Source: Parapedobacter indicus (GTDB taxonomy: Bacteria; Bacteroidota; Bacteroidia; Sphingobacteriales; Sphingobacteriaceae). Taken from it: 64,000 bases of DNA. The stretch is from the NCBI RefSeq assembly GCF_900113765.1, contig NZ_FOQO01000004.1:62001-126000 (forward strand), in the 5' to 3' direction. Shown here piece after piece: positions 14,374 through 33,582 of this stretch. The notes under the pieces were generated by a model. The model was given only the letters and a program-made list of their open reading frames with translations. It did no database searches and had not been told where the DNA came from. Numbering within the stretch: position 1 is the first letter of the stretch; each line of letters begins with the position of its first letter. The position numbers and the translations under genes were made by a program.

Positions 14374-14399
14374 TTCCTTTCCATCAACTTTTGTTTAAG

Positions 14400-14430: not shown

Positions 14431-14519
14431 TTTACATGGCAATGCCTAAACTGTTTATCCCACAAACGGCTTTAAAAAGATGGTTTGATATAATTTTTCA
14501 ACTTGATGATCACTTTAAT

Positions 14520-16081: not shown

Positions 16082-19000
16082 TCAAAATGTAACAAGTGTT
16101 CCCAATTTCATCGTAACGGCTTTCCCGTCAACAGTGACAATATATTCTTCGGCATTCGCCTCGATGGTCAGTTCTCTGCCGCGAATCTTCAATCCCTCCA
16201 ACCGGATCTCCGGTGAAAAAGAAGGGATCGTCGGATTGACCGTAATGCGGCCATCCAATTCCACCTTCACGCCGAACAATCCGAAAATAACGGTTTGTGC
16301 AGCCGTGCACGCATCAAAGTCACTCTGCAACGGGGTATCTTCACGGTAGCCTAAGTAGTTGGCTACCTTCGAGTCTCCCCAGTAAGGCAGCCGTTCGCCC
16401 CACCACAGGTGCCGCTCTAGCAGGTCATCAGCTTCCGAATGGAATCCCGCATTGTAAAACCGTTGGCAGATCAACGGGGGAAAGGCTACATAGCTTCCAC
16501 CCCCACCGTGATCGATGTCGTTTTGATCGTAGGCCGGATCCAGCTTGGAAATGCTGTGAATGCCATAGTCGCCCAGAAACTCCTGCTCATTCAGGTGTGA
16601 AAGCAACCCCTGTTCGACCTCTTCGTCGAATATACCGGTGCCGATCAGGGTATACATAAAATTCGTGTACCGGATACCCCGTTTACCGTTATTTTCAAAA
16701 TAAAACCATTTATCCCGCGCACTCCATAATTCCTTTTTCAACAATGTTTTCAATGCTTCGGCACGTTCAGGCAATGCCGCTATCGGTTTGCCTGCCAGCT
16801 CGGTCAGTTCGTAGGCCCGCATGTAGCTGAGGTACCGCAGGGCATTCACATCGGGCATCACACCCCGATACGGATAACCCCGCTGTAGTTCGAGGTGGTT
16901 CTCCCCTTCATCGCCATAGTCTACCAATACGACATCTTTTTTCAGGTCGTCTCCGAAAAGTGCATTCTTCATGACGTGGTCGTATACCGATAGTCCATCG
17001 ACGACCTCATTTAGAAAGTCCACGTCGCCCGTATGGACCACGTAATAATAAATCAGCTCGATAATCTTATCCTGATTTACCTGATACCACGAACCGGCTC
17101 CCTCTCCGGTCATGGGTTCGAAACGGGAGCGCTTGGTGATGTCTACCTTGAGGAATTGCTTAATGTGCGCCCTTGCGATATTGGCGTCGTATAGCGGGAA
17201 AATCTGCGCGGGCAGGCCAAATTCCCAAAGGTGCAGGGTCACGCTTCCGCCGATCACCGCACCGCTCCCGTAATAAGGCTGCAAGGCGAACTCGGGCACC
17301 TCCCACTTATTGGTCAGTAAGGTCACCAACGAGCGGTAGTAATAATCTTCCAGCCGTTTGTCGCTGGCATGGAACCGGGGCAAGCGGTCCAGCAACTGAT
17401 TGACCTCTTCGATATGGTGCTGCCGCGCGGCAGCTACTTCATTGTCAGCGTTGGTTAGTAACGACCGGACAGTATCCTGCGATAACGCTGTGCCACCCAA
17501 TTCCAAACCGATGTGGTATTCCCGTGCTTCGCCCGGTGCCAGCCTAATGCGGGTATCCCAGCGTGATCCCAATTCAAACCATTCGATATGGGGAAAGTCA
17601 GTAGCGATAATCAGGCGTCCATCCTTATTTTCCCTCACCATCACCCCATTTTCTGCGTGATTACTGGTTTTATCGCGGGCATCCGGTCGCTGGAAATCCC
17701 ACCGTTTCACGTAGTTGAACCCGCCTTGGAGATGCAATTGCACCGGTACGACCAGCGAATCGTTGGTCTGGTTTTTCAGGTGGATTACCATCAACCCAGC
17801 CTTTTTGCCCGCCGGCAAGGTGGTAACGCTAGACACTGCGAGGCCATTGATTTCACCGGTCCGTTGGACTTCAAAAGGATACCACTTATAATCACGGGTA
17901 CGGACTTTTTCGCCGAAGAGCCGCAATTCCATCAGAAAATCGGAGCTTGCATAAGGGGGCGCAAAGAAACTGCTGATGGTTCCCACATCCTGGTAATTGA
18001 CCCGGCAGGTGGCATGCCCGTTAATGATGCCGAAGTTTTGCTCCTTCATGATGTTCCGCGATCCGTCAAGCGCGAACGTTTCCAAGGGGCTTTTCTGGGG
18101 CGGGTTAAGAGCGGCCTTGATCTTGGCATGATACGCCATGGCCTTATCCGCGTCGGCCCGCCAGTTCCATTCGCCCCTGGGCACATTACCTTCGTAAGCG
18201 CTGATCAACTGGCTGTACTTTTCGGTTTCCACTAAGCCCTTGTTCAGTGTCTCCATTACAAATGGAGTACGGAAGGCTGCTCCCCTTGCATAAATCCGGT
18301 GGGCGAAATACAGGCCCGATACCGCTCGGTGCAGCGAAGCCGTTAGCCAGGTCCGTTCGAAATAGGCATACAGTTCTTGATAATCTTTAGCTTTCAGGCT
18401 TGCCCTGGCCATCCGGACCTGCTCCAGCGATTCACTAGCCAAAGCAACGCCATAGTCCTTTTCGGTAAGGATATCTTTCAAGTATCGCTCATTCATGCAT
18501 TCCCGGGGATGCAGCCATCCCGCCGCCAGCACCTTGGGGATTTCCTCAAACTGTTCGTCTCCGGCTTTTACCCACACCGGTGCCAAGTGGTTTACCACGT
18601 CTTTCCAGTAATGGTACTCCTTGTTTACGTTATGCCTTACGGAAGCTATCGGAGGATCAAGCCATTTGCCCGAAACATGGCGGATGTAACTGGATACGTA
18701 ATCGTGGTACACCAGTGAAGAATGGCTGGCCGTATTGATACCCAAGGTGTATAGCGTGGAAGTCACAATATCAAAAGCATTCGCAAACGCCTTCTCCAAA
18801 TAAGGAACAGCACGTGCACCGTAGCGATCGGTAATGAATTCCCGATAAACTTCGTCGACAGAGATATCCGGTTGCTCACCCATGCGTTTCAGGGCATAGA
18901 GGTTTATTTCGCCCGGCTGACCAATGATGCCCGTATCGCCATACCGATCTGTACGGGCTGTATATCCTATGACATGCGGCCGTTTGCTGAAATTTCCCCA

Positions 19001-19840
19001 CCTGCGCATCACCAATTGGGGCCATGTGTTGGCGATGACCCCCTGCCCGTTGAATTCGCCGGTTGCATCAAATTCGATGATGGTAGGTCGCGCCAGGGTG
19101 CCCGCATAGTAGTCGTCCGGATGCGTCAATAGAAAATCATGAGGTACTTCTTTCATCATCAACCGGATGTTGGGGTTGTCAAACAGGTCAATGGCACCAA
19201 TGATCTGATCGTATTCGGCATCGGAATACGAGAAGGTGCGTGCATAGAGGTTGAGTTTTCGCTCGTCGATGACCACGGAAGCGATGGCATTTACCACTGC
19301 GGCCAATTTTTGCTGACTGGTGGTTAGCTTCGTGGAATACTGGTCTTCCACCCTTGCACCGGTTTCGATGAACGTGAGCACCAGTCCTTGTATATCCGGT
19401 ACGAGATCCAGCATCTCCCGGTAATCGTTTTTCAACCATTCCCAGAAGGCCGGGTTGTCCAGATCGATCTTTCCATCCCGGGCTGTGCGAAAGGCAACCG
19501 GATAATAATTTAAGTCGTATAATGCGCGATCCCAAAGCACGACCTCCTGAATTCCCTTTTTATGAGCATAATCCGTTAGTTTTTGTGCCAATTCCCGTCG
19601 GCGCCCATCGCGCACATGCCGGAGGTCATGGATGATGTCGTGCGACAATTGCAGGTGGTTGATGTGGTAATCTTTGGCGCGGTCAACGGTGGATTTACCC
19701 TGCGCCAGGTTATCGGATAACAGGGTCCATCCCCTGATGGGTTCACCGGATAACAGCGGACCAACGGCAACGTTGGCAAACAGCGGTAATACAACTTGAA
19801 AAAGTGCAATAAGGCAGATAACTAGTTTTTTTGCGGTCAT
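16082..19840 (-). CDS. Two-domain secreted glycoside hydrolase-like protein (GH67-like plus six-hairpin glycosidase)
   Basis: 1252 residues with a signal peptide (cleavage near residue 22). The N-terminal part (about 35-600) resembles alpha-glucuronidase-like TIM barrels: RGWTLLSDNLAQGKS, YAHKKGIQEVVLWDRALYDLNYYP, GLVLTFIETGARVEDQYST and TWPQLVMRRWGN. The C-terminal part (about 605-1250) has a beta-sandwich, then an alpha-barrel of the six-hairpin type with EDYYYRSLVTLLTNKWEVPEF, GSGAVIGGSVTLHLWEFGLP, VNQDKIIELIYYYV, DYGDEGENHLEL and DIDHGGGGSYVAFPPL. This C-terminal part is closely paralogous to the whole neighbouring 701-residue protein. It is the last gene of the PUL operon, 14 bp after its paralogue. 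The acidic groups are candidate catalytic residues; no CAZy family is assigned. Confidence 0.6.
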   Translation of the reverse strand: MTAKKLVICLIALFQVVLPLFANVAVGPLLSGEPIRGWTLLSDNLAQGKSTVDRAKDYHINHLQLSHDIIHDLRHVRDGRRRELAQKLTDYAHKKGIQEVVLWDRALYDLNYYPVAFRTARDGKIDLDNPAFWEWLKNDYREMLDLVPDIQGLVLTFIETGARVEDQYSTKLTTSQQKLAAVVNAIASVVIDERKLNLYARTFSYSDAEYDQIIGAIDLFDNPNIRLMMKEVPHDFLLTHPDDYYAGTLARPTIIEFDATGEFNGQGVIANTWPQLVMRRWGNFSKRPHVIGYTARTDRYGDTGIIGQPGEINLYALKRMGEQPDISVDEVYREFITDRYGARAVPYLEKAFANAFDIVTSTLYTLGINTASHSSLVYHDYVSSYIRHVSGKWLDPPIASVRHNVNKEYHYWKDVVNHLAPVWVKAGDEQFEEIPKVLAAGWLHPRECMNERYLKDILTEKDYGVALASESLEQVRMARASLKAKDYQELYAYFERTWLTASLHRAVSGLYFAHRIYARGAAFRTPFVMETLNKGLVETEKYSQLISAYEGNVPRGEWNWRADADKAMAYHAKIKAALNPPQKSPLETFALDGSRNIMKEQNFGIINGHATCRVNYQDVGTISSFFAPPYASSDFLMELRLFGEKVRTRDYKWYPFEVQRTGEINGLAVSSVTTLPAGKKAGLMVIHLKNQTNDSLVVPVQLHLQGGFNYVKRWDFQRPDARDKTSNHAENGVMVRENKDGRLIIATDFPHIEWFELGSRWDTRIRLAPGEAREYHIGLELGGTALSQDTVRSLLTNADNEVAAARQHHIEEVNQLLDRLPRFHASDKRLEDYYYRSLVTLLTNKWEVPEFALQPYYGSGAVIGGSVTLHLWEFGLPAQIFPLYDANIARAHIKQFLKVDITKRSRFEPMTGEGAGSWYQVNQDKIIELIYYYVVHTGDVDFLNEVVDGLSVYDHVMKNALFGDDLKKDVVLVDYGDEGENHLELQRGYPYRGVMPDVNALRYLSYMRAYELTELAGKPIAALPERAEALKTLLKKELWSARDKWFYFENNGKRGIRYTNFMYTLIGTGIFDEEVEQGLLSHLNEQEFLGDYGIHSISKLDPAYDQNDIDHGGGGSYVAFPPLICQRFYNAGFHSEADDLLERHLWWGERLPYWGDSKVANYLGYREDTPLQSDFDACTAAQTVIFGLFGVKVELDGRITVNPTIPSFSPEIRLEGLKIRGRELTIEANAEEYIVTVDGKAVTMKLGTLVTF

Positions 19841-19854
19841 TCGGATGTCTCTTT

Positions 19855-21960
19855 CTATCTAAGGATAATCGGTGTACCAATGGTAGCGTCATAACGTACA
19901 CCATTGGCGGTTACATAATAGGTTTCGGTATTCGCGTCTATCGTAATATTTTTTCCCCGTATCTTCAATCCCTCCAACCGGATTGCGGGAGAAAACGATG
20001 GTATCGTAGGGTTTACCGTAACGCTTCCATCAAATCCGACTTTCACGCCGAACAAGCCGAAAATAAATGTCTGCGCACCTGTAATGGAGTCAAAATCGCT
20101 TTGTAACGGTGTGTCATCCCGGTACCACATAAAATTAGCCACCTTGGAATCGCCCCAATATGGCAACCGCTCACCCCACCACAGGTGGCGCTGCAACAGG
20201 TCATCCGCCTCCCTCGCAAAACCAGCATTGTACAGCCGTTGGCAGATCAATGGTGGGAATGCCATGTAGCTCCCGCCCCCGCCATGGTCGATATCAACCT
20301 GGTCATAAGCCGGATCCAGCTTAGAAATGCTATGAATACCGTAGTCGCCCAAAAATTCCCGCTCGTTCAGATGCGAAAGCAGCCCTTGCTCCACTTCTTC
20401 GTCAAACACACCTGTACCGATGAGTGTATACATGAAATTCGTCCATCGGATGTCCTTTTTCCCGTCGGTTTGGAAGAAAAACCAGTGATCTTTTTCGCTC
20501 CACAACTCGCGTTTCAACAAATCTTTCAGTGTTTCCGCACGCGTCAGCAGTTTATCCATCGGCTTACCGGCCAATTTCGTCAATTCATATGCGCGGATGT
20601 AAGTGAGGTATCGCAGGGCATTTACGTCGGGCATCACCCCCCGGTAGGGATAACCGCGGCGCAATTCCAGGTGGTTTTCACCGGCTTCGCCATAGTCTAC
20701 CAAGGTGACTTTCTTATTGAGGTTGTCACCGAAGAGCGCGTTTTGCAGCATGTGATCGTAGACACTTTTTCCTTCCACCATTTCGTTAAGGAAATCCACC
20801 TCGCCGGTATGCAATACGTAATAATAAATCAGTTCCACGATTTTGTCCTGATTCACTTGGTACCATACGCCGCCCCCAGTGCCCGTCATTGGTTCAAAAA
20901 GGAAGTGTTTGGTCATGTCTACTTTCAGAAATTGCTTGATGTGACTGGCTGATGCCTTGGGATCATACAACGGAAAAATCTGTGCGGGAAGCCCAAACTC
21001 CCACAGGTAGTTGCCCACACAACCGCCAATGACCGCCCCGCTGCCGTAATACGGTTGGAGGACAAATTCCGGAACCTGCCATTTGTTGGTAATCAGCGTC
21101 ACCAGTGATCGGTAGTAATAATCTTCCAGCCGGTTGTCCGAGGCTGAAAAACGGGGCAGTTTATCCAGCATATCCTCCACCTGCTGCTCATGAGCCTCCC
21201 GTGCTTGCCGGACAGCTCCCGTGGGATCTTGCAAGATTGCATCAACGGCTTGACCCGTTATACCCGGCGCGCCCATCTCCACAGCAAGGTGATAGGTCAC
21301 TTCCTTTCCAGCAGGTACCGATACTTTTGTATCCCAGCGGGAACCCAGATCAAACCATTCCAATCCCGGTATATCAGAACCGATGACGATGCTTCCTTCG
21401 GGGTTCGACTTGATCAGGCGACTTCCGTTACTGGCAGTTGTGGTCTTATCCGTGGCATTAGGCCGCATAAACTCCCATCGATTCACATAATTCAATCCTC
21501 CTTGGATATGGAATTGGATAGGCACCAGGGTGTCCGCTCCGGTTTGATTGCGAAATGTCAGGATCATCAATCCAGCACGCTTTTCATGGGCCAATACAGT
21601 GGATGTTTTTACGGCTATGCCGTTGATTTCGCCTTCCCGCTGTACCTCAAATGGGTACCAACGATAGTTAGACGTCGGTACTTTCTCGCCAAATAGGCGG
21701 GTTTCCAACAGAAAATCGGAACTGGCAAAGGGCGGTGCAAAAAGCCCGCTGACTGTACCAATATCCCGGTAATGGACCCGGGTGGTAATTTTTCCATTGA
21801 TGATACCAAAATTCTCCTCGGCCATGATGTTCCGTTCGCCGGCGAGGGCAAACAACTCCAAGGGATGAGACTGTGCATAAAGACGCTGCAAATTCGGCAT
21901 CGCTGACACCACGAATAGCACCAGGATACATACTAAAAATCGGTTATCAGAAATGTTCAT
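19855..21960 (-). CDS. Secreted six-hairpin glycosidase-like protein, paralogue of the adjacent C-terminal domain
   Basis: 701 residues from the ATG at 21960, which gives a signal peptide ending near RLYAQ; the longer open frame has no export signal. An N-terminal beta-sandwich (about 30-290, SHPLELFALAGERNIMAEENFG, FASSDFLLETRLFG, RWDTKVSVPAG) is followed by an (alpha/alpha)6-like barrel with EDYYYRSLVTLITNKWQVPEF, GAVIGGCVGNYLWEFGLP, DYGEAGENHLELRRGYP and DIDHGGGGSYMAFPP. It aligns along its full length with residues about 600-1250 of the next gene. It lies 17 bp after the MFS gene. Probably an exo-acting glycoside hydrolase or uronidase; substrate unknown. Confidence 0.6.
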   Translation of the reverse strand: MNISDNRFLVCILVLFVVSAMPNLQRLYAQSHPLELFALAGERNIMAEENFGIINGKITTRVHYRDIGTVSGLFAPPFASSDFLLETRLFGEKVPTSNYRWYPFEVQREGEINGIAVKTSTVLAHEKRAGLMILTFRNQTGADTLVPIQFHIQGGLNYVNRWEFMRPNATDKTTTASNGSRLIKSNPEGSIVIGSDIPGLEWFDLGSRWDTKVSVPAGKEVTYHLAVEMGAPGITGQAVDAILQDPTGAVRQAREAHEQQVEDMLDKLPRFSASDNRLEDYYYRSLVTLITNKWQVPEFVLQPYYGSGAVIGGCVGNYLWEFGLPAQIFPLYDPKASASHIKQFLKVDMTKHFLFEPMTGTGGGVWYQVNQDKIVELIYYYVLHTGEVDFLNEMVEGKSVYDHMLQNALFGDNLNKKVTLVDYGEAGENHLELRRGYPYRGVMPDVNALRYLTYIRAYELTKLAGKPMDKLLTRAETLKDLLKRELWSEKDHWFFFQTDGKKDIRWTNFMYTLIGTGVFDEEVEQGLLSHLNEREFLGDYGIHSISKLDPAYDQVDIDHGGGGSYMAFPPLICQRLYNAGFAREADDLLQRHLWWGERLPYWGDSKVANFMWYRDDTPLQSDFDSITGAQTFIFGLFGVKVGFDGSVTVNPTIPSFSPAIRLEGLKIRGKNITIDANTETYYVTANGVRYDATIGTPIILR

Positions 21961-21977
21961 ACGTTCGTTATTAAAAT

Positions 21978-23264
21978 TTATGGATGATTGGTCGGTTCTT
22001 CCTCCAGTGCTTTTCCTTTGGTTTCCGGTAGGTATTTCCAGACGAAGAAAAACGTTGGGAGCGTAATCAATGCAAGCAACCAAAAAGTAAGCGATTCACC
22101 AAGGTGTTCCATGCTGATGGGAAACAACTGGGCGATGATCCAATTGGCGCCGAACAACGAAAATGTGGCCAATGCCATCGCTTGGCCCCTTACTTTGGTG
22201 GGAAACATTTCGGCCATCACGATCCAAGGGATGGGTCCCATGGAAAACGCGAAACAGGCAACAAAGCAGGATATCGCGATCAGCAGCCCCGTTTCTGAAA
22301 AGGCTGCATCGGTGAAGAAATATCCGATCAGGAACAGTGTGCAACAAATACCGGCATTGCCGATGAACAGCAAGGGCCTACGGCCCAGGGTATCCACCTT
22401 CCACATCGCCAATAGGGTAAACAGCACCAATACCACCCCGAACACCAGTTGCCCACCCAGCGAATCCACAAATGAAAACCCTGCACGTTCTAAAATAAGT
22501 GGCCCATAATGCAGCACGAGATCGATGCCGCTCAACTGCGAAACGATCGCCAAATAAAGGACGATCAGCGTAGTTCTCCGCATTGGGGTTTTGACTAAAT
22601 CAGCGAAGGAAGTGACAGATCGTGCTTCATCTGCCAGCATGCGGAAACGGGGACTTTCCGGCACGAAAACGAGCAGCAGCAGGAAAAGCAACGACGGAAC
22701 CGCTGCCGTGCCTAACATAATCCGCCATATCTCGACACCCGCAAATAGGGATCCCGCCGCATTTGCCTGGCTTGAAAGCAGGTTGCCAATATAATGATTG
22801 GATAGGTACGCGATGAGGATTCCGATGGTCAGAGCAAACTGATTGAGTGCTACCATCCGACCGCGGATTTCCATCGGGGCCACCTCTGCAATGTAAAGCG
22901 GAGAAACCATCGCGGCGATACCTACGGCTATCCCAGCCATCAGCCGGAAGCAGACGAACAGGAAGAACGTACCCGAAGCGGCGGCCCCTATGGAAGATAT
23001 CAAAAACAAGATACCTACCCAAACCAACGTGGGCTTCCTGCCCAACCGATCGGACAAATAGCCGGATAGCAGTGCCCCCACCACACTGCCCAATACCACA
23101 GAGCTGACCAGCCAGCCCTGGAGGGCCGGTTGGGACGCCAGGTCGAAATACCGGATGAGCGGGCTGAGCGCACCGGAAATAACCGCCGTATCAAAGCCGA
23201 ATAAAAAGCCGCCCAGGGCCGCTACACATGCCAAAAAAGATACATATATCAACCGTCCCATCAA
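21978..23264 (-). CDS. MFS sugar porter
   Basis: 428 residues with twelve predicted membrane segments. Sugar-porter signatures are present: GFLFGFDTAVISGAL near the start, LSDRLGRKPTL after helix 2, RLMAGIAVGIAAMVSPLYIAE in helix 4, VPESPRF after helix 6, DTLGRRPLL after helix 8 and MAEMFPTKVRGQ after helix 10. The loop after PESPRF is shorter than in XylE/GLUT proteins. The helix-7 motif reads QLSGIDLVLHYGP where the family usually has QQxxGxNxxxYY, so the substrate may be unusual. It overlaps the dehydratase gene by 4 bp, which implies translational coupling. It would import the sugar or sugar acid freed by the PUL enzymes. Confidence 0.85.
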   Translation of the reverse strand: MMGRLIYVSFLACVAALGGFLFGFDTAVISGALSPLIRYFDLASQPALQGWLVSSVVLGSVVGALLSGYLSDRLGRKPTLVWVGILFLISSIGAAASGTFFLFVCFRLMAGIAVGIAAMVSPLYIAEVAPMEIRGRMVALNQFALTIGILIAYLSNHYIGNLLSSQANAAGSLFAGVEIWRIMLGTAAVPSLLFLLLLVFVPESPRFRMLADEARSVTSFADLVKTPMRRTTLIVLYLAIVSQLSGIDLVLHYGPLILERAGFSFVDSLGGQLVFGVVLVLFTLLAMWKVDTLGRRPLLFIGNAGICCTLFLIGYFFTDAAFSETGLLIAISCFVACFAFSMGPIPWIVMAEMFPTKVRGQAMALATFSLFGANWIIAQLFPISMEHLGESLTFWLLALITLPTFFFVWKYLPETKGKALEEEPTNHP

Positions 23265-24430
23265 TCCACCTCATATTTGGTTACGGCATCCATATTCAGC
23301 GAAATCCCTAAGCCGGGCTTGTCCGGCAATGTGATCACGCCGTTTACCATGCTGATCGGATCATCGACCAATTCGATGCGCAGGGCCGAATCGCACATTT
23401 CTGCCGGGAGGAACTCAATCATGGGGCAATTCGGCGTGGCAAAGGCTAGATGGGCCGTGGCCGCGATGCCGATGCCCGATTTCCAACAATGCGGCACAAT
23501 CAAGCGACCACGATCTTGTGCCATGTGGCATACGCGCGTGGCTTCGGTAAGGCCACCTACCCTGCCCACGTCGGGCTGTGCGACATCCACCCGCCCCCTG
23601 TCAAGCAGGTCAATAAATTCAAACCGGGTGTTCTGCCATTCGCCAGCGGCAATCCGCATGGGTGCTTCTTTTGCCAGCAACGCATACCCTTCCAGGTTAT
23701 CGATTTGCAGAGGCGTTTCCAGAAAATAGATATCCAGATCCTCCCACTTCTGTATGGTACGCAACGCCGAACGGGCATCGTACCACAGGTACTGCACATC
23801 CACCATGATCCGCATATCCGGCCCTACGGCGCGGCGGCAGGAGCGGATGATGTCTGTCATGTCTTCATCGCTGCCCCGCAGGCCCGTATGATTATACGGA
23901 CCGGCTAAGGTACATTCAATCTTAGCCGCCGTGTATCCGTAGTCCTTTGCCCGCTTGATCCAAGCGATCAACGAATCGCCATAAGCCGTTACGGAATCGC
24001 CATAGGGTTGCAGCGAGGCGTAGGGGGTGATGATTTCCTTGCTTGCACCGCCCAGTAGTTTGTATACGGGCAACCCCAGCGCTTTGCCCTTGATGTCCCA
24101 CAATGCCATGTCAATGGCACCCATGGCACAAATCACCGCCCCGCGGCGACCGCTCATGCATGTGTAGGTATATAATTTATCCCAAATGGCCCCCGTATCG
24201 AAGGGGTCCATACCAATCAGCAGATCGCGCATGCCCATGGCCATCGAATGACTGCCAGGGGCTTCAATGGCCGCTTTGGCAAGCCACGGTCCGGTATCGG
24301 TTTCTCCTACGCCGAAAATGCCCTCGTCTGTATGAACGATGACGACCAAGTCGTCTTGCGACGAGGATGTGGCGTCTTCCTTCAAACCTGGAATCTTCAA
24401 AACCTTGCATTCAATATTCGTAATCTTCAT
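23261..24430 (-). CDS. Enolase-superfamily (mandelate racemase/muconate lactonizing type) sugar-acid dehydratase
   Basis: 389 residues. The N-terminal capping domain has ITNIECKVLKIPG and MGAIDMALWDIKGKALGLPVYKLLGG. The barrel shows the metal ligands in order: Asp in RIMVDVQYLW, Glu in YFLETPL and Glu in RIAAGEWQN, then VAQPDVGRVGGLTEA and the catalytic His in IVPHCWKSG. The KIE at AAKIECT replaces the usual KxK lysine pair. This is the pattern of acid-sugar dehydratases such as galactonate- or mannonate-type enzymes. In the PUL it follows a dehydrogenase and a lactonase, so its substrate is likely an aldonate or uronate made by them. It ends in a 4-bp overlap with the porter gene. Confidence 0.85.
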   Translation of the reverse strand: MKITNIECKVLKIPGLKEDATSSSQDDLVVIVHTDEGIFGVGETDTGPWLAKAAIEAPGSHSMAMGMRDLLIGMDPFDTGAIWDKLYTYTCMSGRRGAVICAMGAIDMALWDIKGKALGLPVYKLLGGASKEIITPYASLQPYGDSVTAYGDSLIAWIKRAKDYGYTAAKIECTLAGPYNHTGLRGSDEDMTDIIRSCRRAVGPDMRIMVDVQYLWYDARSALRTIQKWEDLDIYFLETPLQIDNLEGYALLAKEAPMRIAAGEWQNTRFEFIDLLDRGRVDVAQPDVGRVGGLTEATRVCHMAQDRGRLIVPHCWKSGIGIAATAHLAFATPNCPMIEFLPAEMCDSALRIELVDDPISMVNGVITLPDKPGLGISLNMDAVTKYEVD

Positions 24431-24459
24431 TTAAAATAAGTATTCGTTAGTTGCTGTTT

Positions 24460-25371: not shown

Positions 25372-25375
25372 AATG

Positions 25376-26143
25376 CTAGGTACCTTCAATGTTAAGCCCT
25401 ATTCCGCCATCCACCCGGTAGGTGTGTCCGGTGGCGAAACTTGCTTTATCACTGGCCAGAAAGGTAATGAAGTTGGCCACTTCCTCCGCTGTTGCGATCC
25501 GCTTCAGCAAGTGGATATTCCGTGTTTCTTCAATCACAGCCTCTTGATCTGTAAAACTCTCGATATCCTTTTCCAGCATCGGCGTCCACACTGCACCCGG
25601 GCATACGGCCACGCACCGGATTTTAGGAGCGAAATCGATGGCAATCGAACGTGTTAATCCATGAAGGGCTTCCTTGCTTGCAGCATAGGCAGCCACATTT
25701 CGCTGGGATACAAACCCTTGTACACTGCCTACGTTGACAATGGCAGGGTGGGATGCTTTTTCCATCAAGGGGATCGCGTATTTGGCGCATAGGTAAACTG
25801 CCTTCAAATTGATATCCATTGTGAAATCCCATACATCTTCTCCGGTATTCACCGCATTCCCGTAGGTCTGCACACCCGCATTGTTAACCAACACGTCGAT
25901 CGTACCAAACTGATCTCCGATTTTGGCAAATGTATTTTTGATCGACGGGTGATTGGCCAGCTCACAGTGGAAAAAGAAGAGTTGATCGGAGAATTCAGCA
26001 AGTTCGTCGGCGAGTTTTGCACCGTCCCTGCCCAGCACGGCTACCTTGGCTCCGGCTGCAATCAGCTGCAAAGCGGCCGCTTTTCCGATCCCGGATGTTC
26101 CTCCGGTTACAACCGCCGTTTTGCCTGTAAATGATAGGATCAT
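25376..26143 (-). CDS. SDR-family oxidoreductase, probable sugar dehydrogenase
   Basis: 255 residues, classical short-chain dehydrogenase. NAD(P)-binding TGGTSGIGKAAA (residues 14-25), NNAG in VLVNNAGVQTYG, catalytic Ser in NVGSVQGFV and Tyr-Lys in YAASKEALHG, then VCPGAVWTPM. Arg after the first glycine motif region (LGRDGAKL) allows NADP. It lies 4 bp after the GH2 gene and 4 bp before the lactonase gene, so oxidation of a released aldose at C1 is the simplest role, similar to fucose, rhamnose or galactose dehydrogenases of non-phosphorylative routes. Specificity is inferred from context only. Confidence 0.85.
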   Translation of the reverse strand: MILSFTGKTAVVTGGTSGIGKAAALQLIAAGAKVAVLGRDGAKLADELAEFSDQLFFFHCELANHPSIKNTFAKIGDQFGTIDVLVNNAGVQTYGNAVNTGEDVWDFTMDINLKAVYLCAKYAIPLMEKASHPAIVNVGSVQGFVSQRNVAAYAASKEALHGLTRSIAIDFAPKIRCVAVCPGAVWTPMLEKDIESFTDQEAVIEETRNIHLLKRIATAEEVANFITFLASDKASFATGHTYRVDGGIGLNIEGT

Positions 26144-26147
26144 ACTA

Positions 26148-28904
26148 TTAATTGAAATTAAATGTCAAGTGGATAAAAAGCCGATGGTGTTCGTAGCGAG
26201 AATCCTTAAATGTAGCCGGATGGGCTTGCGGCCCGAGTTCCTTTGCTTCCATAAACTTATCGCCGATACCATTGATGGTATGTAAAAAAGAGAGGTCGCC
26301 CTCGGGATATACCATCTTTGCGTTTTCCGGCTTTTGGGGCTCCTGCGGCGTCAGCATCCGCAGGAAGATGTCGTCGCTATGTACATATACGGTAAAATCC
26401 GGAGTGCCTTTGCCTTCAATGCGTGCCCAATAGGTATTGGCGTGGTAACCTTTGAATTCCGGATAAACATAACCGGATTCACCCGTCACCGTATTATTGT
26501 ATGCCTTTTCCCATAGACCGAAGCGGGCACCTTTCATCCGGTTTTTATACACCCGGTATGGACCATTGCCCAACCAGGTCATGCCAGCAACCTGCTGTTC
26601 GGGGTAGCTAAATGTGATGCCCGCAAAGTCACTGCTATATGCTGGCTCATATTTCACTACTAAATCCAAAAGTCCATCGCCGTTTATTGTCCACCTGAAT
26701 CCATCATCCCCTTCGAATTGCGTTTCGATGACCAGATCGTTGGCGTCATAGCGTTGCGTGACCGCTTCAACTTCTTTTTTGTTGTTGACCCATATCGGCC
26801 CGTTGGAAAGCGGTATCCGTTGTCCCGCCTTGTCTACTTGTGTAAGTAGTCCATTTTTTTTGCTGAAAGCAAAAGTGACAGCCCCGGTCTGCACCTGCCA
26901 CGTATCCTGCGTTTCCGCCACCACAGGCCTACTGCCCGACTTTACAGGTATCAATTCATTCGTTTTGTCTGAAGCTGTCTTCAACGGCCAGCTCCACGTA
27001 TTGATAAGCCGTCCGTGGGGGTCGACGGCATGGATACGGAGGATATCCATGCTTTGCCACCCTGTCGGAAGATCTAATTGCAGCAGTCCTGATTGTCCCG
27101 GATGTACGTTGACGGATAAATCCGCGGTTGCATTCACCTGCTCCTGCAGCTTTTTACCCGGCGCGGATACAGTAATCCATTCCGCTGTAAAGCGACAGGC
27201 ACTGAAATTGGTAAAATGGAACCTGTTTTCCACATGAAAACTACCGTCAAAAGCCGGCGTGATGTAACGCTTTTCAAAATAGATAGGCGACCATACGTCT
27301 TTGATGGTGTAAAAACTCCCCTCCTTCTCATTATACGGTCCTACAATGCCATCGGGTGCCTCATTTCCGTATGTATCCAATTGATTATCCCGATCCGTAC
27401 GTTCCACCGCTTCATCCGCAAACACCCAGAGGAAGCCTCCTGTACAGAGCGGGTCATTCGACATGCGATGCCAGTAATCCTCCAATCCGGCACCATGTCC
27501 ACCGTCATATAGGCCGTGTAAAAATTCCGTGGGCATAAATAGTTTGCGTCTGCTGTATCCATCGTTGGCCAGGTAATTGTAGCCCATGTAATGGTAGGTA
27601 TTGAACAAACCGAAGTCCTGCCAAGGATGCAATACCTGCCGTTGCTGGATATCCAGTTTCGCAAAATCGTCGTCTAGGCTGGTGTTCCACCCTCCTTCGT
27701 TGCCATTGTCCCACAGGATGATGCTGGGATGATTTACGTCTCTTGCGATCATCTCCGTGAGGAGTTTCTTGCCCACCGTATCATCATAAGGCGGATGTTG
27801 CCATCCGGACAGTTCATCCAATACAAAAAGGCCCAGCGAATCACACACCTCCAAAAAATGCTTATCCGGTGGGTAGTGCGACATCCGCACGGCATTCATG
27901 TTCATGTCTTTCATCAGGTTTAGCGCTGTAATGCTCAATGCTTTCGACGAAGTCCTTCCGTATTTAGGGTGAAAGGTGTGGCGGTTCACACCTTTCAATT
28001 TGACCCTAACCCCATTGATATAAATTCCATCGCTTTCCCGGACTTCGACCGTACGGAAGCCAATCCGTTCTGTGTATACGTGCAGGGGCCTCCCATTTTT
28101 ATCCAGCAAGCTGAATGTTGCTTGATAAAGGTTAGGGAATTCGGGCGACCAGGTTTCAGGATGATGCAACTGCCCGGTTATCCGTGTGGTCTCTTGCACA
28201 GTGCGTGCTTCAAAAACCGCATTTTCTGTCCCTTTATTGGATTGGATACTCACCTGCACCTGATGGACAAGTTCCGGGTTTGCGATATAAACATCGGCAT
28301 TAAATGTCCCATCAGCACGAGCGTCTATAGCAACCCGCTCAATGTGGGTCTTCGGTTTCACCTCCAAGTACACCGGGCGGAAAATGCCGCCGAATACCCA
28401 ATAGTCTGCATGTCGTTCCGCTTGGTTCACGCTCTTATTGTCCGAGTGCTTCTTCACCCCCACTTCCAGTTTATTAGACGTTCCATATTTCAGCAGAGAT
28501 GAAATATCGTAGCTGAACTGATAAAAGGCTCCTTGATGAACCGGGCCGGCCAGTTTTCCGTTGATTTTCACTTCGGCATCGGTCATCACCCCTTCAAATA
28601 CAATATGGATGACTTTTCCCTGCCAATCGAAAGGGACATCAAAGGTGTGGCGGTAACGACCGGTTTCGTAAAACCGGTCGCCCGAACCATAACCGTAATA
28701 ATATCCCCCGAATCCCTCCTGTTCCCAGCAGGAGGGTACGGGGATGGTCGTCCATTTTCCGCTATTTCTGCCTTTGGAACAATAAAACTCCCAATCCACC
28801 CGGTTATCGGCGCCTGTTCCAGAGAGGTAGACCACCTTATTGGTCCATTGCGCAACCGCCAAAACGGGTAGTACAAGGAGAACGATGGAAAACAACCGCT
28901 TCAT
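26148..28904 (-). CDS. Glycoside hydrolase family 2 (beta-galactosidase-like), secreted
   Basis: 918 residues from the ATG at 28904, which starts a signal peptide (MKRLFSIVLLVLPVLAVAQ). Sugar-binding jelly roll (about 35-190, PVPSCWEQEGFGGYYYG), immunoglobulin-like domain (about 190-290), TIM barrel (about 290-590) and C-terminal beta domains, the last resembling the small-chain domain of beta-galactosidase. Acid/base Glu is near residue 403 in LWDNGNEGGW and the nucleophile Glu near 460 in MPTEFLHG. The sequence DNGNEGGW differs from the usual LGNESG of LacZ, so a substrate other than lactose is plausible. It sits 22 bp after susD and 4 bp before the SDR gene. Confidence 0.88.
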   Translation of the reverse strand: MKRLFSIVLLVLPVLAVAQWTNKVVYLSGTGADNRVDWEFYCSKGRNSGKWTTIPVPSCWEQEGFGGYYYGYGSGDRFYETGRYRHTFDVPFDWQGKVIHIVFEGVMTDAEVKINGKLAGPVHQGAFYQFSYDISSLLKYGTSNKLEVGVKKHSDNKSVNQAERHADYWVFGGIFRPVYLEVKPKTHIERVAIDARADGTFNADVYIANPELVHQVQVSIQSNKGTENAVFEARTVQETTRITGQLHHPETWSPEFPNLYQATFSLLDKNGRPLHVYTERIGFRTVEVRESDGIYINGVRVKLKGVNRHTFHPKYGRTSSKALSITALNLMKDMNMNAVRMSHYPPDKHFLEVCDSLGLFVLDELSGWQHPPYDDTVGKKLLTEMIARDVNHPSIILWDNGNEGGWNTSLDDDFAKLDIQQRQVLHPWQDFGLFNTYHYMGYNYLANDGYSRRKLFMPTEFLHGLYDGGHGAGLEDYWHRMSNDPLCTGGFLWVFADEAVERTDRDNQLDTYGNEAPDGIVGPYNEKEGSFYTIKDVWSPIYFEKRYITPAFDGSFHVENRFHFTNFSACRFTAEWITVSAPGKKLQEQVNATADLSVNVHPGQSGLLQLDLPTGWQSMDILRIHAVDPHGRLINTWSWPLKTASDKTNELIPVKSGSRPVVAETQDTWQVQTGAVTFAFSKKNGLLTQVDKAGQRIPLSNGPIWVNNKKEVEAVTQRYDANDLVIETQFEGDDGFRWTINGDGLLDLVVKYEPAYSSDFAGITFSYPEQQVAGMTWLGNGPYRVYKNRMKGARFGLWEKAYNNTVTGESGYVYPEFKGYHANTYWARIEGKGTPDFTVYVHSDDIFLRMLTPQEPQKPENAKMVYPEGDLSFLHTINGIGDKFMEAKELGPQAHPATFKDSRYEHHRLFIHLTFNFN

Positions 28905-28926
28905 ATTCAAAAATACCACGATGGGC

Positions 28927-30387
28927 TTAATAACCTGCATTTTGCTTCAAGACCGGTTTAATCAGCAGTTGTTCTTCCGGCAGCGGGAACAGGATATGGG
29001 CGTCTCGCACCTGAAGTTCCTGATTTTGTGACTGGTGTGCATGGGGCATAAAGGCATTCATTTCACGCTTCAAGTAATCGATACCCCTGAACCGAAGGTC
29101 AAACCAGCGATCGCCTTCCAGTAGGAACTCCTTTTGCCGTTCATTTGCCAGCGCCTCAAACATTTCCGGTTTGGAAAGGCCTTCCGGCAAATCGCCTACG
29201 TTAGCTCGTTGTCTCACTTGGTTGACATAGGGATACGCCTGCTCGGTTTTTCCATTTTCATTTAATGCTTCGGCATACATCAGCAATACATCTGCATATC
29301 GCAAAATAATGGTATTGGCTCCGGATAGGCTGTTAAATGTTGTATTCGGGTCGATGTATTTAAGTGAGAAAATATTGTTCTCAACAGATCCCAAAATATC
29401 GTAGGTTACTTCTTGCAATAATTCACCCCGTTTATCTGCTGGTGCGAATTTTTCAGCGACATAAGGCTCAATCATGTAAATGCCGCTGCCTGCCTGGCCC
29501 TGAACATTGGGGTACACAAGACCCTGCGGCGAATTATAAGGCACCGTGGTATTCACAAACGGACTTCCGAAGCCGGAGGCTCTGTCATAGTTTATGCTGA
29601 ATATAATTTCATTGTTGAAAGGCTGATCCGGATGATACAATACATCGAGGTCAACCAGCGTTTTGCCACTGGTTAGCACTTCGGAAAGTACATTTTCAGC
29701 CGCGGGGAAATCGTGCTTCCATAGGTGTACTTTTCCCAGCAGCGTTTTCGCGGCAACTGTTGTTGCCCTTCCGCCGGCCTTCTGATTTTCATCCGTTGAG
29801 CGATACGAATCAATATTAGCTGCTTCCTGCAAATCAGCAATGATTAGTGCGAATACCTCTTCCTCACTCGCCCTTGGAATGTCATAGATCTTACTTAAGT
29901 CGAGGTATTCGGGATATAAGGGTACGCCGCCGAATACCCGTACCAGATTGAAATAAGCATATGCACGGAGGAACCGTGCTTCGGCGACGATTTTCTGCTG
30001 GGCCGTTTGATTAACGTTTGAAGCCTGCAACTTATCAATCAACAGGTTAACCCGCTGAATGGTGGTAAAGTTGCCGGACCAGTAGCTATCGAAAATACCC
30101 GTCTGTGCGGTAAAGCCCAATCGATCGAGATCAACATGCGAACCTGACGTTTGAAACCTGGATACATACGCGTTGTCACTCGGTAATTCGCCGATCTGGA
30201 TGGTGTTTGTAGAAATATCCGTGATGGATTGATAGCAACCGGCCAATGCTGCCCAGAAATCCGATTCGGTGATATATAATTTATCGTACCCCAGGTCTCC
30301 CGGATAATTTCGGTCCAGAAATTCCTCGCTGCACGATGAAAGCAGCACGAGACTGCAAGTGATGATATGAAGAATAGAACGTTTCAT
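28927..30387 (-). CDS. SusD/RagB-family glycan-binding lipoprotein
   Basis: 486 residues. Lipoprotein signal with LVLLSSCSEEFLD (Cys near residue 19), placing it on the cell surface. TPR-type helices and the RagB/SusD patterns are seen in EARFLRAYAYFNLVRVFGGVPLYPE (here split: ARFLRAYAYFNLVRVFG and GVPLYPEYL), RYADVLLMYAEALNENG and NERQKEFLLEGDRWFDLRFRG. The tail HILFPLPEEQLLIKPVLKQN AGY-type end (LPEEQLLIKPVLKQN) is typical. It forms a bed-lid complex with the SusC-type barrel encoded 18 bp upstream and binds the PUL glycan. Confidence 0.95.
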   Translation of the reverse strand: MKRSILHIITCSLVLLSSCSEEFLDRNYPGDLGYDKLYITESDFWAALAGCYQSITDISTNTIQIGELPSDNAYVSRFQTSGSHVDLDRLGFTAQTGIFDSYWSGNFTTIQRVNLLIDKLQASNVNQTAQQKIVAEARFLRAYAYFNLVRVFGGVPLYPEYLDLSKIYDIPRASEEEVFALIIADLQEAANIDSYRSTDENQKAGGRATTVAAKTLLGKVHLWKHDFPAAENVLSEVLTSGKTLVDLDVLYHPDQPFNNEIIFSINYDRASGFGSPFVNTTVPYNSPQGLVYPNVQGQAGSGIYMIEPYVAEKFAPADKRGELLQEVTYDILGSVENNIFSLKYIDPNTTFNSLSGANTIILRYADVLLMYAEALNENGKTEQAYPYVNQVRQRANVGDLPEGLSKPEMFEALANERQKEFLLEGDRWFDLRFRGIDYLKREMNAFMPHAHQSQNQELQVRDAHILFPLPEEQLLIKPVLKQNAGY

Positions 30388-30405
30388 AACAATGATTTTA
30401 CATGG

Positions 30406-33400
30406 TTAAAAGGTTAGGTTAATTCCAAAAGCATAGGTGCGCGACAACGGAGCACCGCCAAAGTCTACGCCAAACTGTGCGGATCCGGCACTGCCGCTGA
30501 AGTAATTGGCCTGTGGATTATACCATGGATAATCGGTAAAGGTATAGAGGTTTTGGACGTTGAACGAAAGCCTCAAGTCACTTATAGCCAATCTACTTAG
30601 CAGATTTGCGGGCAGGCGGTATCCAATGGTAGCACTTTTTATCCGTACATACGAGGCATCAAAAAAGTGGTAGTCATTTTGCGTCAACCGGTTCCCGGTG
30701 TAGTCGAGATTTGCCGCGCCGTACACGGTGCCGGCCTTGTCATAGATCAGCTTTGAAATATTACCTTCCGTTGGCGATATCCAGCTTTGATTTCGAAGCA
30801 AAGGCAAGTATTTCATTGCTCCCTGGCTCCCATCAACAATCACGTTGAAATCGAAGTTTTTATAGGTAAACGTGTTGTTAAAACCGAATGTGAAGTCGGG
30901 CAATGCACTACCGAGCCGCTGCAGGTCATTGGAATTGATTTCGTTATCACCATCAACGTCTTCTTGGATCGGATCACCTATTTTGGCGTTGCGCGGCCGC
31001 GGATACTGTTGTAATTGCTCTTCGGTTTGGAATACGCCGAGTGTTTTATACCCATACAATTGGAACATCTCCTGGCCTTCTAGAATCCATACCACGTCAA
31101 ACTCCCCGCTTCCCATACGCAACACACCGTCTGTGGTATGTATGGCTGTAGCTTTATTCCATACCTTGTTGAAAATCCAGTTGGTGGTCCATGTAAAATT
31201 GGGCTTCCTGATATTGGTAGTGGTCAATGCCAGTTCGATTCCTTTATTCGTCATATCGCCGATGTTGTCCATAATACTGCCGGATATACCATTTTCAGAC
31301 GGTAAGGGTCGCCAAAGGAGCATGTCCCTGGTGTTTCTTATATAGTAATCGGCCACGAGTCCAACCCGATTATCCAGGATACTGAAGTCCAATCCTACAT
31401 TGTATTGTTCGTTTGTCTCCCATTTCAGGTTCGGATTCTCAATCGAAGCAGGATATGCGGTCATCGTGATGCCACTCGACCCATCACTCGGTCCAAATAG
31501 ATATTGGCCACCATAGCTTACTGCACCTTGCCAGAGGTAGTTGCTGATCTGTTCGTTGCCAGAAATGCCATAGCTCAACCTTAGTTTCAGGTCGTCGAAA
31601 AACCGTTGCCCCTGCATAAAGGACTCTTCGGAAACACGCCATGCCGCAGAGGCCGCAGGGAAAATCCCGTACCGGCTTCCCGGAGCAAATTTCGAGGAAC
31701 CATCCCTGCGTAAGGAAGCCATGAAGATGTACTTGTCATCGTAGTCATAATTCACCCTGCCGAAAACCGAGGTAAACGTAGTCTCGGAAAACGCGCCCCC
31801 GCCGCCAACGTCGTTTGCACCGAAAATAGAGGGCCTGAAATAATTGTCGAATGCGGGCAGCGGGTCTTCAGCGTTTGCTCCCCGATCGTTTTCCCGTGCA
31901 TCGGCGCTGGTTCCCCGTTGGCCGGAATATTGTATGCTCGTACCAGCGATAACCGACAGATTATGTAGATCAAACGCCTTCTTGTATTCGGCAAACCCTT
32001 CGATGATATACTGACCGGTGAACTGGTTGTATTGGCCTGCTGACATGCTTTCAAAAAAGGGATTGGAAAAATTGGCTTCGCGGCTATGGCCATTGGCAGA
32101 CAAATACGGACTTTCCATGTACGTGCGCATATTGGTTGTAAACCTCCCCATGAAACTGGCATTCAAGTTGAGTCCGGCGATTGGTTCATAGTTGATAAAG
32201 CCTTTTCCAAGTCCCGAGAATTTATGGTAGCGGTCGTCAATTTCCAGCAGGGCCGCCACGGGGTTACCGTAGCCGCCATAGACAACGGGTGTGCCCCAAT
32301 TTTCGGAATTAACCTGCCCGTAATCGCCATTTTCCATGTAGACCGGTATAATCGGATATTGAACAATCGCATCTTCCAAGATACCGCCGTTTCCATGCGC
32401 CGCGCCTCCCAGCTTCGAATTGGTTCTTGTTTTAACGATCGCCGCGCTGTAATTCAAACCCACATTCAGTTTGTTGTTCAGCTTGATATCAAACATTCCG
32501 TTTGAAGCGTACTGATCCTCGTTGAGCGTAAGAATGGTGCCCTTGTTACCCATGTAGTTGAATGAAAGGTTATAACGGATCGACTCCGAACTGCCATTTG
32601 CCGTAATCTGATGATTCTGGAACAATCCGGTCCGGAAAATCTCGTCCTGCCAGTTGGTATTGGCTACGTTGCTACTAAATACGGGAGCTTCCTGACCCGA
32701 GGCTGCATACGCTTTTTTGGCATACTCGATATATTCCGGGCCACTTAAGACCGGGATTTTCTTTTCTACATAATTCAGTCCGACCGTCGAGTTATAGGAG
32801 AACTTCGGTTTGCCTTTCCCCGATTTGGTGGTTACGATAATCACGCCATTACCGGCCCTCGAGCCGTATATTGCTCCGGCGGCGGCGTCCTTCAGGATAC
32901 TGATGCTCTCCACCGACTTCGGATTCAAAAACCTGAAATCCTCGATGGGTACAATCATCCCATCAATGATATATAAAGGTTCGCTTCCCGCATTTATGGA
33001 ACCATACCCCCGGATCCGGACAACGGGAACATCTCCGGGTCGGCCAGAACTTTGTTCAACGAGGACACCTGAAACATTTCCCGTGAAGGCATCTGCAATG
33101 TTTGCAATGGGTTGATCGTTGATTTGTGCCGCCTTAACGGTAGAAACAGACGTGGCTAATTTTTTAACACTTTCGCTTCCGTATCCCACGACCACCACTT
33201 CATCCAACGCCGTCGCTGTTCTGAGCGAAACGTTGATAACGGCCCGATTACCGACTTCCGCTTCCTCGGTAGCATACCCTACGTAGGAGAATACCAATAT
33301 CGCCTGATCATTCGGCACGACGATGTTATACGAGCCATCATTGCTTGTAGATGTGCCCATTGTGGTGCCTTTTACCATGACGTTTACGCCCGACAGGCTT

Positions 33401-33582
33401 TCCCCCTGCTGGTTCGTGACTTTACCGGAAATTTCCCGATCAATCGTGGCAACGTGTCCATACCCATCTATCGCAGCGGTACAAAGGATCACGATGAGCA
33501 TCCAGGTCCACCAACCTGTGTTCCAAAATGTGCCGCTTGAGCACGTACCGGAACTAATTGTTTTAGGTCTTTTCGTTTTCAT
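30406..33582 (-). CDS. SusC/RagA-family TonB-dependent outer-membrane transporter
   Basis: 1058 residues. A long N-region and signal sequence (MLIVILCTAAIDGYGH) precede a CarboxypepD-regulatory-like domain (about 48-125, ISGKVTNQQGESLSGVNVMVKG). The TonB box is in LDEVVVVGYGS (about 127). The plug has VRIRGYGSINAGSEPLYIIDG and the AGAIYGSRAGNGVIIVTTKSG signature (given in part). About 800 residues of barrel follow, ending in an aromatic residue (GINLTF). It imports oligosaccharides with the SusD partner. It is the first gene of the nine-gene PUL operon, and the divergent AraC gene lies 305 bp away. Confidence 0.95.
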   Translation of the reverse strand: MKTKRPKTISSGTCSSGTFWNTGWWTWMLIVILCTAAIDGYGHVATIDREISGKVTNQQGESLSGVNVMVKGTTMGTSTSNDGSYNIVVPNDQAILVFSYVGYATEEAEVGNRAVINVSLRTATALDEVVVVGYGSESVKKLATSVSTVKAAQINDQPIANIADAFTGNVSGVLVEQSSGRPGDVPVVRIRGYGSINAGSEPLYIIDGMIVPIEDFRFLNPKSVESISILKDAAAGAIYGSRAGNGVIIVTTKSGKGKPKFSYNSTVGLNYVEKKIPVLSGPEYIEYAKKAYAASGQEAPVFSSNVANTNWQDEIFRTGLFQNHQITANGSSESIRYNLSFNYMGNKGTILTLNEDQYASNGMFDIKLNNKLNVGLNYSAAIVKTRTNSKLGGAAHGNGGILEDAIVQYPIIPVYMENGDYGQVNSENWGTPVVYGGYGNPVAALLEIDDRYHKFSGLGKGFINYEPIAGLNLNASFMGRFTTNMRTYMESPYLSANGHSREANFSNPFFESMSAGQYNQFTGQYIIEGFAEYKKAFDLHNLSVIAGTSIQYSGQRGTSADARENDRGANAEDPLPAFDNYFRPSIFGANDVGGGGAFSETTFTSVFGRVNYDYDDKYIFMASLRRDGSSKFAPGSRYGIFPAASAAWRVSEESFMQGQRFFDDLKLRLSYGISGNEQISNYLWQGAVSYGGQYLFGPSDGSSGITMTAYPASIENPNLKWETNEQYNVGLDFSILDNRVGLVADYYIRNTRDMLLWRPLPSENGISGSIMDNIGDMTNKGIELALTTTNIRKPNFTWTTNWIFNKVWNKATAIHTTDGVLRMGSGEFDVVWILEGQEMFQLYGYKTLGVFQTEEQLQQYPRPRNAKIGDPIQEDVDGDNEINSNDLQRLGSALPDFTFGFNNTFTYKNFDFNVIVDGSQGAMKYLPLLRNQSWISPTEGNISKLIYDKAGTVYGAANLDYTGNRLTQNDYHFFDASYVRIKSATIGYRLPANLLSRLAISDLRLSFNVQNLYTFTDYPWYNPQANYFSGSAGSAQFGVDFGGAPLSRTYAFGINLTF

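Follow-up and report, generated by a model that had tools for sequence, protein, structure and literature searches.

Oxidative catabolism of sugars inside polysaccharide utilization loci (PULs) is already known, in red-algal galactan loci. In the parts of the reports used here, PUL 7 of Pseudoalteromonas carrageenovora carries a D-galactonate dehydratase and a sugar lactone lactonase for which a De Ley–Doudoroff pathway was proposed, and the corresponding figure lists a short-chain dehydrogenase/reductase (SDR) among the compared clusters (PMC6262041). The carrageenan PUL of Zobellia galactanivorans likewise has its own oxidative pathway to 2-keto-3-deoxy-D-galactonate (dauA-D), together with an enolase-superfamily enzyme, sugar transporters and the AraC-family activator CgrA (excerpts of PMC5698469). 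Here we compare with these systems a PUL of Parapedobacter indicus, contained in a stretch of 64,000 nucleotides (G000:C8:62001-126000, hereafter the window) of a genome of 6.16 Mb in 33 contigs, in which genes for an SDR, an SMP-30/gluconolactonase-family protein and an enolase-superfamily dehydratase follow one another next to a sugar porter gene.

An initial annotation of the window had considered it unusual that a PUL should carry its own monosaccharide catabolism, a claim weakened by published catabolic genes in PULs for carrageenan and, in the part of the report used here, for alginate (PMC5334617). Judging from the families and their context, D-galactose or a sugar closely related to it is the most likely substrate of the oxidation, with about an even chance that it is D-galactose itself. 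We put at about even odds the fuller proposal that the PUL is controlled by the AraC protein, that its glycan contains galactose and is probably decorated with uronic acid, and that, with D-galactose as the sugar, it encodes the initial half of a De Ley–Doudoroff pathway. SusC and SusD would import oligosaccharides, to be trimmed by the exported glycoside hydrolase family 2 (GH2) enzyme and by GH94-like and GH67-like enzymes, and the major facilitator superfamily (MFS) porter would carry the monosaccharide into the cell. There the SDR would oxidise it to a lactone, the SMP-30 protein would open the lactone to the aldonate and the enolase-superfamily enzyme would dehydrate this to a 2-keto-3-deoxy acid; in the case of D-galactose, a 2-keto-3-deoxygalactonokinase and a KDPG-type aldolase encoded elsewhere would complete the pathway.

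The operon and its predicted sugar-oxidation trio

The locus consists of nine open reading frames (ORFs) on the minus strand, from susC (33582) to the gene for a 1252-aa protein (16082), in the order susC, susD, GH2, SDR, SMP-30, enolase-superfamily dehydratase, MFS porter and two glycoside hydrolases predicted to be secreted. The principal features are as follows.

25376..26143, minus strand: SDR, predicted aldose 1-dehydrogenase (PF13561)
24460..25371, minus strand: SMP-30/gluconolactonase-family protein, predicted aldonolactonase (PF08450, 214 bits)
23261..24430, minus strand: enolase-superfamily (MR/MLE) protein, predicted aldonate dehydratase (PF13378/PF02746)
21978..23261, minus strand: inner-membrane MFS sugar-porter, XylE-like (TIGR00879, 322 bits, over the cut-off of 238)
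26148..28904, minus strand: GH2, exo-beta-galactosidase-like (PF02836/PF02837; signal-like N-terminus by eye)
28927..30387, minus strand: SusD-like glycan-binding lipoprotein (PF07980, PF14322)
30406..33582, minus strand: SusC/RagA TonB-linked outer-membrane transporter (TIGR04056, 793 bits, cut-off 368)
33888..34769, plus strand: divergent AraC-family regulator (PF12833)

Both the nine-gene arrangement and the placing of SDR, SMP-30 and dehydratase genes in reaction order beside a porter gene had been proposed in the initial annotation, and both are borne out, the second by families and order. With sensible starts all gaps are at most 29 bp or short overlaps: 18 bp between susC and susD, 22 bp between susD and GH2 (ATG at 28904; an overlap of 14 bp if the longest ORF, which begins at 28940, is taken), 4 bp between GH2 and SDR, 4 bp between SDR and SMP-30 (ATG at 25371; an overlap of 14 bp with the TTG start of the longest ORF at 25389) and 29 bp between SMP-30 and dehydratase. 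The dehydratase and MFS genes overlap by 1 bp (ATG at 23261) or by 4 bp with a TTG start, and gaps of 17 bp (ATG at 21960) and 14 bp precede the genes for the 742-aa and the 1252-aa protein, respectively. We found an adjacent susC/susD pair, CAZyme genes and a regulator, the components of a susCD-type PUL, and the Pfam families SDR, SGL/SMP-30, MR_MLE, Sugar_tr, GH2 and SusC/D; the last two genes have no Pfam match reaching its cut-off. The operon is real and coherent, and its genes are presumably co-transcribed. By family and order, the trio contains what the De Ley–Doudoroff pathway uses as galactose dehydrogenase, lactonase and galactonate dehydratase, and by family it is also of the sulfofucolytic type (SDR, SMP-30 and MR/MLE).

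The end of the operon is not fixed, because a DJ-1/PfpI-family gene (15447-16010, minus strand), absent from the initial annotation like the AraC gene and the repeat described below, follows the last gene at a distance of 71 bp in the same orientation and may be co-transcribed. Terminator-like sites were not in excess in the window (20 against 20.7 +/- 4.7 in shuffles), nor were promoter-like sites (21 against 24.9 +/- 4.2) under a sigma-70 model, which is not of the Bacteroidota type. No tRNA was predicted by ARAGORN in the 64,000 nucleotides, and a cmscan search gave no hit to Rfam at gathering score. A second SMP-30/gluconolactonase-family protein (14370-15401, plus strand), with a signal-like N-terminus by eye, is encoded outside the PUL and is not the lactonase of the operon. 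The PUL is flanked by two PIN-domain genes, 13758-14117 (minus strand), about 2 kb past the last PUL gene, and 34761-35147 (minus strand), at that end of the AraC gene which points away from the PUL; these are possibly toxin–antitoxin remains bordering the block.

Relatives of the trio, the active site and the host genome

A contig search returned at least 80 dehydratase loci, 19 of them at least 53% identical to the window protein. In two of these 19, Flagellimonas pacifica (L001) and a flavobacterial metagenome-assembled genome (MAG; L002), AraC, SDR, SMP-30 and dehydratase genes stand side by side as in the window; identities are 51% (L001) and 48% (L002) for AraC, 62-66% for the SDR, 47-51% for the SMP-30 protein and 76-80% for the dehydratase. 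A third locus, L019, combines the dehydratase with an SDR and an SGL-family protein. Judging from these loci, the AraC–SDR–SMP-30–dehydratase set is a patchily distributed module carrying its own regulator.

The dehydratase subgroup itself is, by the sequences retrieved, patchy across phyla. Three overlapping genome samples, each including the host, were searched: besides the host there was no match in 151 family genomes (E up to 1e-90), nor in 395 phylum and 400 order genomes (E up to 1e-140), nor in the 8 same-genus genomes listed (E up to 1e-90). Among the matches listed, the loci at least 53% identical include F. pacifica (80%), the flavobacterial MAG, Balneolaceae, Cytophagales, Poribacteria, Planctomycetota, Verrucomicrobiota, Chloroflexota and others. 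In a tree of 29 rows the window row is unresolved within a 22-row clade that mixes phyla and into which one long-branch paralogue also fell, and for this reason we claim a patchy distribution and no donor. Close to the F. pacifica galactose cluster, a DUF5712 gene with a weak relaxase match (L001:16777-17796) suggests a mobile element.

The neighbours of the module favour a galacto-configured sugar, since in F. pacifica galM (aldose 1-epimerase), galK and galT lie within about 3 kb of it, and GH27, GH42, two sulfatases and a GH129-like gene belong to the extended locus (contig C10 of G801). Galactose is also favoured because the GH2 of the PUL is exo-beta-galactosidase-like (best NCBIfam match NF049891, exo-beta-1,4-galactosidase of BT4156 type, at 1022 bits, below the cut-off of 1700) and because all four Chloroflexota loci (L012-L015) carry a GH42-cluster protein. 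These four loci also encode permease-like proteins by eye (4/4) and a DHDPS-family-cluster protein (3/4), Pfam names having been checked for L012 only. The same three families, moreover, act in vitro on a galacto-configured sugar, according to the excerpts of PMC12421959 used here.

The active site of the dehydratase was aligned over 19 sequences, namely those of the window, of 13 of the 19 close loci, of a Phaeobacter plasmid and of four outsiders. No exchange occurs at Asp287 or His314, nor at the metal ligands Glu238 and Glu264, Asp211 is nearly invariant, and the second lysine position of the KxK motif is a glutamate (KxE) in all 15 rows of the subgroup. Enolase-superfamily enzymes use the second KxK lysine as S-specific base and the His/Asp dyad as R-specific base; D-galactonate, D-gluconate and L-rhamnonate are 2R acids. 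Since the dyad is kept and the second lysine replaced, 2R acids would suit this enzyme better than L-fuconate or D-arabinonate, and a site suited to 2R aldonates such as D-galactonate favours galactose. Identification of the protein as DgoD was rejected on score (model NF010624, 172.8 bits against a cut-off of 311). Among known structures, 3vtz, a glucose 1-dehydrogenase, is the best PDB match of the SDR, the SMP-30 protein matches regucalcins, and the best matches of the dehydratase (3sjn, 3mkc and 3mqt) have only the generic labels racemase or MR/MLE.

The fourth and fifth PDB matches of the dehydratase are 4ggb, the D-galactaro-1,4-lactone cycloisomerase of A. tumefaciens, and 5olc, which is DauB (both as given in the part of PMC5698469 used here). 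The latter raises the idea that our protein is a cycloisomerase of anhydrogalactonate, an agar or carrageenan sugar acid, and the GH129-like gene of F. pacifica is compatible with it, as in that paper GH129 includes an anhydrogalactosidase. However, in the same portion of that paper the route has no lactonase step and its first enzyme, DauA, was initially annotated as a lactaldehyde dehydrogenase and not as an SDR; as none of the PUL genes belongs to a carrageenase or agarase family either, we regard this explanation as very improbable.

In the host genome, contig C13 encodes a true DgoD (692.5 bits, cut-off 311) together with a DGOK kinase and a member of the KDPG-aldolase family, and C23 another aldolase-family/DGOK pair. 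The initial annotation had noted that the next enzymes are missing from the PUL and must be elsewhere; these genes are, by family, the candidates to complete the pathway. The window dehydratase is only 27% identical to the host DgoD, in whose alignment row the His/Asp dyad is present and the second KxK lysine absent. Genes galK and galM are found on C26, while no match to PF01087 (GalT) was found in the host genome, so that its Leloir pathway may be incomplete; this lack is not unusual, since in a control set just 6 of 14 genomes gave a match, Bacteroides ihuae being without one. The presence of DGOK, KDPG-aldolase-family, galK and galM genes with no GalT match favours galactose.

Of the four candidate sugars named in the initial annotation (fucose, galactose, rhamnose and a uronic acid), galactose is now favoured and L-fucose becomes unlikely. 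The host has a dedicated L-fucose cluster on C21, with FucP, an L-fucose dehydrogenase (420.6 bits with model NF052481, cut-off 300, which the window SDR does not reach with 163.4), an SDR, an FAH hydrolase and a fuconolactonase-like protein below its cut-off. Because of this separate cluster and of the KxE site, which lacks the second lysine, L-fucose was set aside as the sugar of the PUL.

Several observations weigh against D-galactose and a De Ley–Doudoroff ending. The SDR scores 238 bits with its best NCBIfam model, NF005007 (aldose dehydrogenase), below the cut-off of 341. In BLAST comparisons, 17 of those 19 loci that have a close dehydratase are without homologues of both the window SDR and the SMP-30 protein (16 if the SGL-family protein of L019 is counted; several of the 19 are short contigs). 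The later De Ley–Doudoroff genes were seen neither in the PUL nor among the examined neighbours in L001. A second, unrelated D-galactonate dehydratase looks redundant in a host with a true DgoD, and galK and galT in F. pacifica suggest that there D-galactose goes through the Leloir pathway and the module serves another sugar. Relatives of the GH2 were found on plasmids in five records, and in the three contexts considered, which are mixed, altronate or uronate genes occur on two, those of Catenovulum and Pseudoalteromonas, so that these contexts leave the glycan unsettled. The repeat motif described below has no notable match before the host galK/galM or dgo genes (15 stretches, L122-L136). 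Finally, SDR and FAH-hydrolase genes lie near the module in F. pacifica and near the dehydratase in Phaeobacter, which points to a diketo-acid route and is, for these relatives, the strongest argument against an ending by kinase and aldolase.

From the redundancy of DgoD and the galK/galT neighbours it could follow that the module serves some other galacto-configured sugar (sulfofucose, D-fucose, L-arabinose, 6-O-methylgalactose or similar), free D-galactose being handled by other genes. SfcH, SfcD and SfcF, of the same three families, were shown in vitro to act in the case of sulfofucose (excerpts of PMC12421959), which also speaks for it. This explanation seems to us unlikely, though the best of the alternatives, as none of the nine PUL genes is of a sulfonate-processing kind, the sole nameable exo-enzyme of the PUL is beta-galactosidase-like, and the host Leloir pathway may be incomplete.

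The FAH genes are also what would be expected if the sugar were L-rhamnose or L-fucose, degraded by a route ending with a diketo-acid hydrolase of the FAH family. On the Phaeobacter plasmid, whose dehydratase is 49% identical to ours, SMP-30, dehydratase, two SDRs, FAH and a sulfatase are encoded, and in the F. pacifica region the SDR and FAH genes adjoin an MFS gene 53% identical to that of the window; L-rhamnonate, like D-galactonate, is a 2R aldonate. Still, the dehydratase scores 154 bits with the RhamD model, far under its cut-off of 393, the F. pacifica locus contains galactose genes, and the host keeps FucP and an L-fucose dehydrogenase over cut-off in a cluster of their own, so we consider such a route improbable. 

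Predicted exported hydrolases and candidate operators

The last two genes of the operon yielded the following domains.

19855..21960, minus strand: GH94-like enzyme of 742 aa (signal-like N-terminus by eye; longest ORF starts at 22083)
18092..19840, minus strand: GH67-like N-terminal domain of the 1252-aa protein (profile match to 1k9e)
16082..18091, minus strand: GH94-like C-terminal domain of the 1252-aa protein (68% identical to the 742-aa protein)

A profile made of the 742-aa protein, the C-terminal domain of the 1252-aa protein and 6 of the 14 C-domain loci fetched (A3) matches chitobiose phosphorylase 1v7v (E 1.1e-7), and three of its eight members match PF17167 (GH94; best 3.9e-7), the 742-aa protein, its first member, being without match. 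A profile of the N-terminal domain and all five N-domain loci fetched (A1) matches the GH67 alpha-glucuronidase 1k9e (E 4.7e-9), although the domain does not reach the cut-off of the GH67 Pfam model PF07488 (15.6 bits against 23.5). In the alignment with AguA, Asp235 and Glu262 fall on its Asp364 and Glu392, which we take to be its catalytic carboxylates, while a residue for the acid, presumably Glu285 in AguA, is only found nearby, by eye. Structure predictions were poor both for the GH67-like domain from a single sequence (pLDDT 37) and for the GH94-like pair from two sequences (pLDDT 43), and sequence profiles were used instead. Judged without CAZy comparison, the two genes are best called members of undescribed glycoside hydrolase families related to GH67 and GH94.

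The 1252-aa protein, used as query, matched 15 of the 395 phylum genomes including the host, 3 of the others through the N-terminal and 11 through the C-terminal domain, and both domains are joined in the host only; a search without positive control gave no match to either domain in F. pacifica or in six other genomes or records. Two further genomes of Bacteroidota contain paired stand-alone relatives of the GH67-like domain (about 575-590 aa; L085, L086, L103, L104), and the two closest relatives have GH28-like neighbours by eye.

The GH67-like domain would be in keeping with an oxidative uronate route, in which this domain would release a uronic acid, the SDR would convert it to an aldarolactone, the SMP-30 protein would open this and the dehydratase would act on the aldarate. 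The galactarolactone cycloisomerase 4ggb among the PDB matches of the dehydratase, the DHDPS-family-cluster neighbours in three of the four Chloroflexota loci and the altronate/uronate genes near GH2 relatives on the two plasmids are in line with such a route. We give it, however, only a slight chance, as the MFS protein belongs to a sugar-porter family, the SDR is classical and aldose-dehydrogenase-like, and relatives of the module have a galM/galK/galT/GH42 context.

The divergent AraC gene is separated from susC by a gap of 305 bp, containing two direct copies of a 36-nt repeat, 133 bp apart, at which the predicted regulator, with its presumed ligand, might bind.

33653..33688, minus strand: candidate operator, proximal copy, 70 bp before the susC start
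33786..33821, minus strand: candidate operator, distal copy, 27/36 identical to the proximal one

The 27 positions common to both copies were taken as a motif and scanned over 67.7 kb of F. pacifica (135,330 positions). The top score, 21/27, has its 5' end 94 bp before the galM start. Of three further positions, all at 19/27, two have their 5' ends 66 bp and 99 bp upstream of the starts of the SDR gene and the GH129-like gene, respectively, and one falls inside a coding region. Sites before galM, SDR and the GH129-like gene again favour galactose. Among 500 column-permuted motifs the maximum reached 21 in 4, and 2 had at least four positions of at least 19; with 600 permuted motifs against the three upstream regions, which were chosen after the matches were seen, 596 gave no hit, 4 gave one and none gave two or three. 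In the AraC–SDR gap of L002 a 17/27 site was equalled by 43 of 2000 base shuffles, compared with 4 of 2000 for the L001 site, and L019 has no site above chance (972/2000 shuffles). A 17/27 match before susC of F. pacifica (L001:5557), tied with others in that locus, was not counted, and a weight-matrix scan was set aside as circular, the matrix having been built partly from sites that it then found.

Nothing above 19/27 occurs in the 15 host stretches, and the sole 19, at L136:3344, lies ahead of aldehyde dehydrogenase, UxaA-like dehydratase and FAH-family genes; with two AraC-like genes by eye, this cluster (L136:3344-7502, host C24) looks like another oxidative sugar-acid cluster.

Comparison with known systems

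If the galactose reading is true, galactose catabolism can travel with its own regulator and be inserted into different galactan PULs, and the sugar of uncharacterised PULs would become more predictable. The dehydratase subgroup is a concrete target for assay in Bacteroidota, Poribacteria, Planctomycetota, Verrucomicrobiota and Chloroflexota, and the last two genes are two leads for new glycoside hydrolase families. Should the sugar assignment be wrong, the operon would still be a well-defined example of oxidative catabolism borne by a PUL. A bolder idea, which we put forward as doubtful, is that a transferable AraC–SDR–SMP-30–dehydratase cassette with a new KxE dehydratase subgroup (non-DgoD), two new glycoside hydrolase families and a GH67-like–GH94-like fusion strips a uronic-acid-capped galactan new to known PULs. 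We found no description of this cassette in listings of the open-licence literature, outside which most subscription papers lie.

P. carrageenovora was not among the best 30 of 183 plasmid records matching the window dehydratase, no orthology test of the dehydratases having been made. The system of this bacterium differs from ours by its carrageenan enzymes, by its phylum and by the location of galactose dehydrogenase and kinase on the chromosome, as far as described in the part of PMC6262041 used here. The Zobellia PUL serves for 3,6-anhydro-D-galactose and includes its own kinase and aldolase genes, and the account of the cluster, in the sections considered (PMC5698469), has no SDR/SMP-30 pair. 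The sulfofucolytic Entner–Doudoroff pathway (SfcH/SfcD/SfcF/SfcE) has the same three families in the same reaction order on a galacto-configured sugar, with biochemistry, but it is found in Paracoccus and other Proteobacteria, outside a PUL, with an ABC importer and a PF03328 aldolase (excerpts of PMC12421959). As for the last enzyme of the trio, DgoD and the window dehydratase are both members of the enolase superfamily that share the His/Asp dyad and the absence of the second KxK lysine.

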